DNA from: Phytohabitans maris
Lineage (GTDB): Bacteria; Actinomycetota; Actinomycetes; Mycobacteriales; Micromonosporaceae
Assembly: GCF_031085175.1 (NCBI RefSeq)
Contig: NZ_JAVHUY010000014.1
Coordinates: forward strand, 124,001 to 188,000
DNA: 64,000 nucleotides
Direction: 5' to 3'
Made by a program: the position numbers and the translations under genes. Shown here piece by piece: positions 3,121-4,523 of this stretch; the first letter of the stretch is position 1; each line of letters starts with the position of its first letter. The notes below the pieces were generated by a model. The model did no database searches and was not told the DNA's origin. It saw only the letters and a program-made list of their open reading frames with translations.

Positions 3121-3317
3121 CGCGCCACCGTGGCGGCGGGCGGCCGGGGGGGTACGGGCGAGGCGGTCGGGGATGTCGGTCCGCAAGGGCGTCATGCCCT
3201 CCACGGTAGGAGCGAGTTAGGACAGGTCCGGTCACGGTTGGCGCCGTGACCCGGCGCCGCGCTGGCCGGCCGGGGCACGCGGGCCGCCGGCGCGCTCGGC
3301 GGTCCGCAGGAGGTGCA

Positions 3318-3368
3318 CTAGCAGCAGCCGCCGCCACAGCAGCCACCGCAGCAGTCCCGCTTGGTCAT
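3318..3368 (-). CDS. 16-residue cysteine-rich micropeptide (candidate metal binder)
   Basis: A tiny open frame that encodes MTKRDCCGGCCGGGCC: six cysteines as three CC pairs spaced by glycines. Its ATG overlaps the TGA of the MerR gene (TGATG), and a near-perfect Shine-Dalgarno (GGAGGAGGTGA) lies about 7-10 nt upstream, inside the last MerR codons. Together these favour real, coupled translation. The CC-GG-CC-GGG-CC pattern is metallothionein-like, and the upstream gene is a Cys-containing MerR regulator, so a metal-binding or buffering role is inferred. I know of no named family for it. Confidence 0.6.
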   Translation of the reverse strand: MTKRDCCGGCCGGGCC

Positions 3369-3796
3369 CACACGCTCACCTCCTCCCGCTCCGGTCCGCA
3401 CCAGGTCCCCGGCGCCGGCGGCGGGCATTGCCGGGACGGCAGCGCTTCGACCATCGCCGCCATCTCCTCCCGCAGCGCGGAGAGCCGGGCCATCTCGGCG
3501 TCGACCTCGGCCAGCCGCCGGCGCAGCAGCTGCTCGGCCGGCTCGCACGGGCAGGTGCCGGTGTCGCGGATGGCGAGCAGGTCGGCGATGTCCCGCAGCC
3601 GCAGCCCGAGCCGCTGGCAGCCCTGGATGAACCTCAGCCGGTCCAGCGCGCCCCCGTCGTACGCGCGGTAGCCGCCGGCGGTGCGCCGCGGCGCCGGCAG
3701 CAGCCCGGCCCGCTCGTAGTACCGCACCGTGTCGGCCGGCACCCCGGCCACTTTCGCCAGCTCACCGACCCGCAGCCCGCGCAACGTCGTGGTCAT
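3368..3796 (-). CDS. MerR-family heavy-metal-type regulator
   Basis: A 142-residue MerR protein. The winged HTH is residues 8-45 (VGELAKVAGVPADTVRYYER, GGYRAY), followed by the dimerization helix at about 86-118. Cysteines at 60, 82, 84, 124 and 133, with a CPC pair where the helix begins, suggest a thiol metal site like those of heavy-metal MerR regulators; which metal is unknown. Its promoter (3804-3834) has the stretched spacer and dyad typical of MerR control, and the ATG lies about where transcription should start, so the mRNA may be leaderless. It is coupled to the downstream Cys-rich micropeptide. Confidence 0.88.
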   Translation of the reverse strand: MTTTLRGLRVGELAKVAGVPADTVRYYERAGLLPAPRRTAGGYRAYDGGALDRLRFIQGCQRLGLRLRDIADLLAIRDTGTCPCEPAEQLLRRRLAEVDAEMARLSALREEMAAMVEALPSRQCPPPAPGTWCGPEREEVSV

Positions 3797-3803
3797 GTGA
3801 CCA

Positions 3804-3834
3804 ACGTAAACCTTGGAGTATGGTCCAACGTCAA
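3804..3834 (-). promoter_or_regulatory. MerR-type promoter/operator of the merR-micropeptide unit
   Basis: On the minus strand a -35 TTGACG (3834-3829) is followed by a 19-bp spacer holding the dyad TTGGA-N6-TCCAA, then a weak -10 (TTACGT, or TACGTT with a 20-bp spacer). A 19-20 bp spacer with a central dyad is the classical layout of promoters twisted open by MerR proteins. The carbonic anhydrase gene starts 60 bp away on the other strand. Confidence 0.7.
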
Positions 3835-3893: not shown

Positions 3894-4523
3894 ATGGACG
3901 ACGGCATCGGCAGTGAGTGGCCGGCGACGCCGGCGTCGGCGCTGCAGCTGCTGGTGGAGGGAAACAAGCGGTTCGTGGCCGGCGAGCGGCTCCACCCCCA
4001 CCAGGACGCCGACCACCGGGCGGCGCTCGCGCCGGCGCAGCGGCCGTTCGCGGTGCTGTTCGGGTGCAGCGACTCCCGGCTCGCCGCCGAGATCATCTTC
4101 GACCGCGGGCTGGGTGACCTCTTCGTCGTCCGCACCGCCGGGCAGGTGGTCGGGGCGGAGGTGCTGGGCAGCATCGAGTACGCGGTGGCGGCCCTGGACA
4201 CGCCGCTGATCGCGGTGCTCGGGCACGACTCGTGCGGGGCGATCGCGGCCGCGTACGACGCGGTGCGGCACGGCACCACCCCGGACGGGTTCGTCCGGGA
4301 CGTGGTGGAGCGGGTGATGCTGAGCGTGCTCGCGGTCCGCGGCCAGGCCCTCGCCGACGCCGACGCGGCCGTGGAGGAGCACATCCGGTACACGGTCGAC
4401 CTGCTGGTCCGCCGCTCCCAGGTGATCGCCGACCGGCTCGCCGAGGGCCGCCTCGGCGTGGTCGGCCTCTCCTACGGCCTGGCCGAGGGGACGGTGCGCC
4501 GGGTCTCCGGTCACGGCGTCTGA
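3894..4523 (+). CDS. Beta-carbonic anhydrase
   Basis: A 209-residue beta-class carbonic anhydrase, which interconverts CO2 and bicarbonate. The zinc ligands are Cys58, His111 and Cys114, in CSDSR and GHDSCGA, with the Asp60-Arg62 dyad. The VVRTAGQV and EYAVAALDTPLIAVLGH stretches are also conserved. I chose the ATG at 3894; the frame is open upstream to a TTG inside the MerR operator, which is unlikely. Its last codons overlap an antisense remnant at 4511-4621. Confidence 0.93.
   Translation: MDDGIGSEWPATPASALQLLVEGNKRFVAGERLHPHQDADHRAALAPAQRPFAVLFGCSDSRLAAEIIFDRGLGDLFVVRTAGQVVGAEVLGSIEYAVAALDTPLIAVLGHDSCGAIAAAYDAVRHGTTPDGFVRDVVERVMLSVLAVRGQALADADAAVEEHIRYTVDLLVRRSQVIADRLAEGRLGVVGLSYGLAEGTVRRVSGHGV

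Follow-up and report, generated by a model that had tools for sequence, protein, structure and literature searches.

Cysteine-rich micropeptides encoded behind one clade of MerR regulators in many Actinobacteria: a probable family with inferred metal binding

Bacterial metallothioneins such as SmtA/BmtA, PmtA and MymT are small, cysteine-rich proteins with few aromatic residues that are controlled by metalloregulators, and the known ones have about 50 residues or more. ORFs as small as the one considered here lie below the usual gene-calling limits. In Phytohabitans maris, a 16-codon frame encoding six cysteines begins inside the stop codon of a gene for a MerR regulator, which raises the questions of whether so short a frame is a gene at all, whether it belongs with the regulator and, if so, what its product might do there. 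Here, we examined this locus in the 64,000-nucleotide stretch of DNA in which it lies (hereafter the window) and in relatives of its MerR, and weighed the possible readings.

The micro-ORF and its regulator in the window

The coding features of the locus, all on the minus strand, are as follows.

3368..3796, minus strand: merR, 142 aa, from sequence and Pfam; C82, C84, C124 and C133 do not vary across 18 aligned relatives.
3376..3384, minus strand: Shine-Dalgarno sequence AGGAGGTGA of the micro-ORF, within the 3′ end of merR, from sequence; a match of at least 7 nt is found in 68/71 loci.
3318..3368, minus strand: micro-ORF of 16 codons, translation MTKRDCCGGCCGGGCC and stop, from sequence; alternative GTG start at 3371.
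3284..3302, minus strand: hairpin CCGCCGAGCGCGCCGGCGG 3′ of the micro-ORF, a possible terminator, from sequence; the same or a similar motif lies behind several relatives.

The original prediction had a 16-residue, six-cysteine peptide starting in the MerR stop codon behind the best Shine-Dalgarno sequence of the region. The overlap and a strong Shine-Dalgarno sequence were borne out: the ATG (3368-3366) overlaps the merR TGA (3370-3368) as TGATG, and the ribosome-binding motif lies at 3384-3376. The exact start is undecided, since an alternative GTG (3371-3369), which would give 17 residues, is nearer to GGAGG (7 nt) than the ATG is (10 nt). When ORFs of 8-40 codons were scanned on both strands of the window under strict criteria (Shine-Dalgarno match of at least 6 nt, at least five cysteines, at least 22% cysteine and at most 40 aa), only two of the 887 start-codon candidates passed, and these were the two starts of this micro-ORF, i.e., it was the sole ORF to do so. 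Another cysteine-rich frame in the window (start 18599, minus strand) is without a Shine-Dalgarno sequence.

The regulator contains the MerR HTH and dimerisation region (PF13411, 1.4e-18; PF09278, 9.1e-17) and, as had been predicted, five cysteines (C60, C82, C84, C124 and C133). The last four were unchanged in 18/18 rows of the first MerR alignment; in a second one (16 rows), C82 and C84 were invariant and C124 and C133 were kept at ≥90%. C84 aligns to the helix-start cysteine of the solved MerR and CadR structures, and C124-x8-C133 resembles the C-terminal cysteine pair of MerR and CadR. Judged by alignment, the criterion of metal-ligand cysteines at the helix start and in the C-terminal loop is met. 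The protein is like ZntR, CadR and MerR in its HTH, dimer helix, helix-start cysteine and C-x8-C pair, and in a dyad within a 19/20-bp promoter spacer (see below). It differs from them in falling below all NCBIfam equivalog cut-offs (85-92 bits vs 143-168 for the TIGR/PRK09514 MerR, ZntR and CadR models), in the extra C82, in a longer C84-C124 spacing (40 vs 35 in MerR and CadR by structure alignment), and in that the constant partner of MerRs of its clade is the peptide, not a pump. The CueR equivalog was not reached either (72.5 bits vs a cut-off of 147.4). The predicted model (mean pLDDT 85.5) has a 32-residue helix at 87-118 and is consistent with a MerR fold; it does not support the ligand loop, as pLDDT is low from about residue 121 and the geometry there is not shown.

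Distribution and coding status of the micro-ORF

Relatives were gathered on MerR sequence alone, so the peptide had no influence on the choice of loci. In the organism's own family, MerR matches at E ≤ 1e-20 were present in 47/250 genomes, and a short ORF with at least four cysteines followed merR in 29 of the first 30 loci (L009-L038); in the remaining one, L031, the ORF starts alike and its frame runs on. Among 18 further regions, the ORF was present in four close ones (L039-L042) and not in 14 with more distant MerRs. Across GTDB genomes, 16 of the best 18 (L057-L074) of 80 named loci among the matches listed carried the ORF, L068 and the truncated L074 being without it, and the other 62 of these 80 (identity of about 51% or less; for the most part from proteobacteria and acidobacteria) offered only two long, low-cysteine frames (L079 and L091) unlike the peptide. 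Carriers include Enemella, Knoellia, Ornithinimicrobium, Gandjariella, Actinophytocola, Amycolatopsis, Glycomyces, Lentzea and Geodermatophilus, together with MAGs of Nocardioidaceae, Micrococcus, Egibacteraceae and Acidimicrobiia. The peptide is also encoded on two Rhodococcus plasmids (L138 and L139), in whose records no feature is annotated at that place; the PLSDB gene tables are incomplete. In a phylum sample of 396 genomes, at least 16 had the ORF or a fusion (30 loci examined of more matching places).

The check set in advance as able to refute the prediction was whether the CC pattern and start are kept behind orthologous merR genes. The prediction survived it: 53/58 MerRs with CPC and WC motifs were followed by an ORF passing the strict criteria. 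The five misses were an in-frame fusion (L144), weaker Shine-Dalgarno sequences or starts (L060 and L027), the run-on frame of L031, and an ORF with only four cysteines (L064). Among other MerRs, the strict ORF followed 10/24 at ≥50% identity, 4/21 at 45-50% and 0/88 below 45%. Such MerRs at ≥45% identity behind which no ORF passed include L157 (a fusion), L040, L156/L160/L167, L151, L150, which has a 19-residue ORF with two cysteines behind merR, and plain absences. Of six matches added later from 394 class genomes, two were already known, and the four new loci (L251-L254) all had the ORF; three were strict and the fourth (29 aa, 6 Cys) was just under the cysteine fraction.

In a maximum-likelihood tree of 150 MerRs, from which matches with <40% identity, fewer than about 95 aligned residues or a duplicate 3′ end were left out, all 73 positives and three fusions fell in one MerR clade, where they make up 76/88 rows of the smallest clade holding them; a branch of 89 rows has support 100/92. 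L060 and L031 were scored positive by inspection. No micro-ORF or fusion was found outside the clade (0/62 tree rows).

Several loci around this clade show variations of their own. In L040, merR has a premature TAG and the downstream cysteine-rich ORF and its Shine-Dalgarno sequence are intact; in the Geodermatophilus locus L071, merR is apparently frameshifted in the dimerisation helix and the peptide is intact. L148 and L154 have a second cysteine-rich micro-ORF of another type (..CPCCGCPCGD..) after the first. Directly behind related merR genes, L156 (1970-2263), L160 (1166-1408) and L167 (1232-1420) encode cysteine-rich proteins of 63-98 aa with CGCGC-type motifs, and in L151 (1941-2216) a thioredoxin/glutaredoxin-like protein stands in the peptide's place behind a clade merR. 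None of the three longer cysteine-rich proteins reached a Pfam or NCBIfam family above cut-off: two had no Pfam match, and the third matched DUF883 at E 0.11 and NCBIfam sll1863_fam below cut-off. By inference, clade members with such longer proteins may have the same job done at another size.

Peptide statistics were taken from 71 loci with distinct merR genes and 68 distinct peptides. The peptides are 11-38 aa long (median 20) and contain 4-10 cysteines, a number that is not fixed, at a median of one third of residues; after the start, the composition is 34.5% Cys, 15% Asp, 11% Gly and 0.8% Trp, Tyr and Phe together. They are small, cysteine-rich and aromatic-poor, and so meet this criterion for a metallothionein. 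On sequence grounds, the 16-mer of the window is one of this family of 11-38 residues. At the 71 loci, the merR stop forms the last letters of the GGTGA in the Shine-Dalgarno sequence in 25 and overlaps the start in 24, and the micro-ORF starts upstream of the merR stop in 11 and downstream of it in 11.

Whether these frames are coding has to be weighed against chance in low-complexity DNA, for which the window's own GC-rich, repetitive stretch (TGC/GGC/GCT runs) gives some ground. Against this stand, first, the specificity of position: none of the 729 further genes predicted at these loci, by gene calls made in this analysis, was followed by a strict ORF, and none of 56 strict ORFs lay away from merR in 131 loci ≥5 kb (1,465,764 bases, with overlapping loci counted more than once). 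Second, 12 Glycomyces-type peptides have a mean dN of 0.104 vs a dS of 0.449 (63/66 pairs usable), with cysteine invariant at 10/10 columns and 10/14 non-cysteine columns variable, and five peptides of another type have dN 0.047 and dS 0.137 (9 pairs). Third, in three genomes (L144, L157 and L163) the merR frame continues through the Shine-Dalgarno sequence and ATG into the peptide, and by this in-frame read-through the peptide frame is there part of a protein. We give practically no credence to a chance frame, which is ruled out by the 0/729 genes, by dN<dS with cysteine conservation and by the scan of 887 candidates in the window; a coding micro-ORF frame is instead strongly supported by sequence evolution and the fusions. 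There is thus probably a MerR-linked micropeptide family in many Actinobacteria, for which translation as a free peptide and metal binding are inferred.

Promoter, neighbours and an apparent exchange of output on plasmids

The promoter region of the window comprises three further features.

3829..3834, minus strand: -35 box TTGACG of the promoter facing merR, from sequence; the pattern reaches ≥17/23 in 69/71 micro-ORF loci.
3809..3828, minus strand: putative MerR-type operator with dyad TTGGACC..CTCCAA and a 20-bp spacer (19 bp with TTACGT as -10 box), from sequence.
3803..3808, minus strand: -10 box TACGTT, 6 nt before the merR ATG, from sequence.

A 19-bp, dyad-centred spacer had been predicted here. 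The dyad and the MerR-type promoter (TTGACG-TTGGACCATACTCCAAGGTT-TACGTT, 3834-3803, minus strand) stood, but the length is more likely 20 bp, which follows with a TAnnnT -10 box, and 19 bp is obtained only with TTACGT. Spacers of 19 or 20 bp are usual at metal-sensing MerR promoters, according to the available part of PMC1526738, which also gives a ZntR consensus containing the core TGGAGTCGACTCCA; this core is exact in 5/71 loci, and a loose form, TGGAG[TC]nn[AG]CTCCA, occurs in 25/71. The pattern TTGACC-TTGGAnnnnnCTCCAAGGTn-TAnnnT faces merR in 69/71 positives and 3/3 fusions (score ≥17/23), so that the criterion of a dyad in a promoter with a 19-20 bp spacer is met in 69/71 micro-ORF loci. 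The same threshold was reached by 52/90 distant MerRs (median score 17 vs 22 in peptide loci), and the element is therefore family-typical, not diagnostic of the peptide. From the -10 end to the first in-frame ATG or GTG there are 6-8 nt in 69/72 scored loci, and the remaining three have a GTG that runs into the -10 box, with an ATG 7 nt past the box; given this short distance, merR is predicted to be, and probably is, leaderless. Since the promoter drives merR itself, merR and the micro-ORF look like an autoregulated operon.

No other gene accompanies the pair with comparable constancy: no cluster of neighbouring genes was present in more than 14 of the 78 loci, and the two largest bring together mixed genes whose position varies. 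Glycomyces-type loci have local synteny, seven of them having, by eye, a threonyl-tRNA synthetase-like gene that is transcribed divergently from merR. Also by eye, ArsC/Acr3/ArsR-like genes are close to some copies (L058, L062, L063 and L223); other copies have P-type ATPases nearby. In the window, the gene divergent from merR (3894-4523, plus strand) looks, by eye and from a motif, like a beta-carbonic anhydrase. As a partner it was rejected; it is absent from the recurrent neighbour clusters shown, and the promoter faces merR. The short, cysteine-rich and variable nature of the peptides would also suit a RiPP precursor or other secreted peptide, a reading that we find scarcely credible, because no neighbour among the 78 loci recurs widely enough to be a modifying enzyme or exporter and the one constant partner belongs to the metal-type MerRs.

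The sequence 3′ of the micro-ORF folds more strongly than background sequence does (median z -1.74, n=71, vs -0.29, n=149), with z below -2 in 29/71 vs 21/149, as would suit a terminator. Several relatives have the hairpin CCGCCGAGCGCGCCGGCGG or a near variant of it after their micro-ORF. Of 14 scorable loci, seven have the following predicted gene on the same strand and seven on the opposite one. These data bear on the possibility that the frame is a cysteine-responsive attenuator, in which the speed of translating a poly-cysteine ORF controls neighbouring genes. Leaderless poly-cysteine attenuator ORFs are known from mycobacteria (Canestrari et al. 2020, as described in the available part of PMC9031893), and as far as that description goes they share short length, adjacent cysteine codons and actinobacterial hosts with our micro-ORFs. 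However, they are leaderless and regulate downstream genes, whereas the micro-ORFs have a Shine-Dalgarno sequence and come after merR, not before it. With the strong folding behind the frame and the even split of following genes (14 loci scored), an attenuator is disfavoured and seems to us quite improbable.

Plasmids provide a view of the regulator with another output. Two plasmid lineages, of M. abscessus and Streptomyces, lack the peptide, and there the operator gets its best score in the direction of a divergent P-type ATPase. The ATPases fit a general heavy-metal model best; they score 465 and 453 bits with the Cd-family model (cut-off 313.5) and just pass the Cu model (418 and 416 bits, cut-off 397), so the metal is not settled. 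From these sequences, regulator output seems to be exchanged on plasmids, pump vs peptide. L137, L140 and L141 lack the peptide; in these, the last MerR cysteine has become Arg and the operator points to a divergent P-type ATPase. Loss of this cysteine of the W[RK] type goes with absence of the peptide in 4/4 cases (L068, L137, L141 and L189), but L139 (Rhodococcus) and L062 (a Micrococcus MAG) have also lost the cysteine and both keep the peptide, and a tree-based pair test of co-loss was not significant (median p 0.5). For these reasons, joint loss of the peptide and the last MerR cysteine is suggestive only and is not used as proof.

A proposed metal sensor with a very small chelator

The linkage of the two genes, coding conservation, promoter and its orientation, Shine-Dalgarno sequence, overlap and fusions are read from sequence, and on them we base the proposal of a two-gene metal-response operon, an autoregulated metal sensor with a micro-metallothionein as its output, to which we assign a probability of roughly three in four. 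The MerR, with its MerR/CadR/ZntR-type cysteine set, would sense a thiophilic, probably divalent metal whose identity is inferred, and the metal-bound form would switch on its own promoter. The transcript would carry merR, with leaderless transcription inferred, and then the closely coupled, SD-led micro-ORF, for which translational coupling and translation as a free peptide are likewise inferences. The cysteine-rich product, phytochelatin-sized and ribosome-made, would act as a tiny metallothionein and chelate the metal, and the drop in free metal would put MerR back into its resting state. Metal binding or buffering by the peptide is inferred as the best explanation, with no biochemical data behind it, and a role in detoxification or buffering is inferred as well.

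The alternative that deserves most care gives the peptide the part of a co-regulator or metal relay, which would pass metal from or to MerR as an off-switch or setter of sensitivity and not serve as a bulk buffer. MerR is the only constant partner found, both genes lie in one operon with a short gap or none, and the same frame is fused to the MerR C-terminus in three genomes, all of which would suit such a role. Yet a strong Shine-Dalgarno sequence beside a probably leaderless merR suggests, by inference, peptide in excess of MerR, and most non-cysteine positions are variable in 12 related peptides, so they do not have the look of a protein-protein interface. We therefore regard a relay as possible though unlikely and prefer chelation by a micro-metallothionein.

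Bacterial metallothioneins of about 50 or more residues stand against micropeptides of 11-38 residues that are paired with MerR and of which four were scanned without a Pfam match. These four were among 68 distinct peptides, short peptides rarely match, and the window's 16-mer was too short for the scan; homology to a described metallothionein family was not found among the four. Because so few members were scanned, without homology, and metal binding is only inferred, we do not claim membership of the metallothioneins but a probably metallothionein-like working. Phytochelatins, short, poly-cysteine, acidic peptides that chelate soft metals, are made enzymatically from glutathione, whereas the micropeptides are gene-encoded; shortness, poly-cysteine and acidity are common to both.

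The closest published analogue, as far as the available part of PMC12301328 allows this to be judged, is CadR-zrd of Pseudomonas aeruginosa, in which a MerR-family Cd/Zn sensor activates an unannotated small cysteine-rich protein with a proposed role in metal sequestration; SmtA and PmtA are also named there. The likeness is one of a MerR-family sensor with a small cysteine-rich protein. In that account, however, Zrd is a two-zinc-ribbon protein encoded at a separate locus, and CadR also activates cadA, whereas our micro-ORF shares nucleotides with merR or adjoins it, and the promoter before the pair points into merR. In the open-access literature, we found no earlier description of MerR-linked poly-cysteine micropeptides.

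In its wider form, the proposal is that many Actinobacteria have ribosomal, phytochelatin-sized micro-metallothioneins of at least 11 residues that form, with one MerR clade, a minimal yet complete system of metal response, a sensor-chelator operon that is self-activating, overlapping and occasionally fused, and the sequences lead us to lean towards this with some reservation. If the peptides bind metal, they would be far smaller than known bacterial metallothioneins and would be short, genetically encoded chelators. In a survey of Frankia, none of the metal-related merR genes was in an operon with metal resistance proteins, according to the available part of PMC4531530. If true, our reading would supply an output for such "orphan" metal MerRs and could explain actinobacterial metal-type merR genes that apparently lack a target operon.
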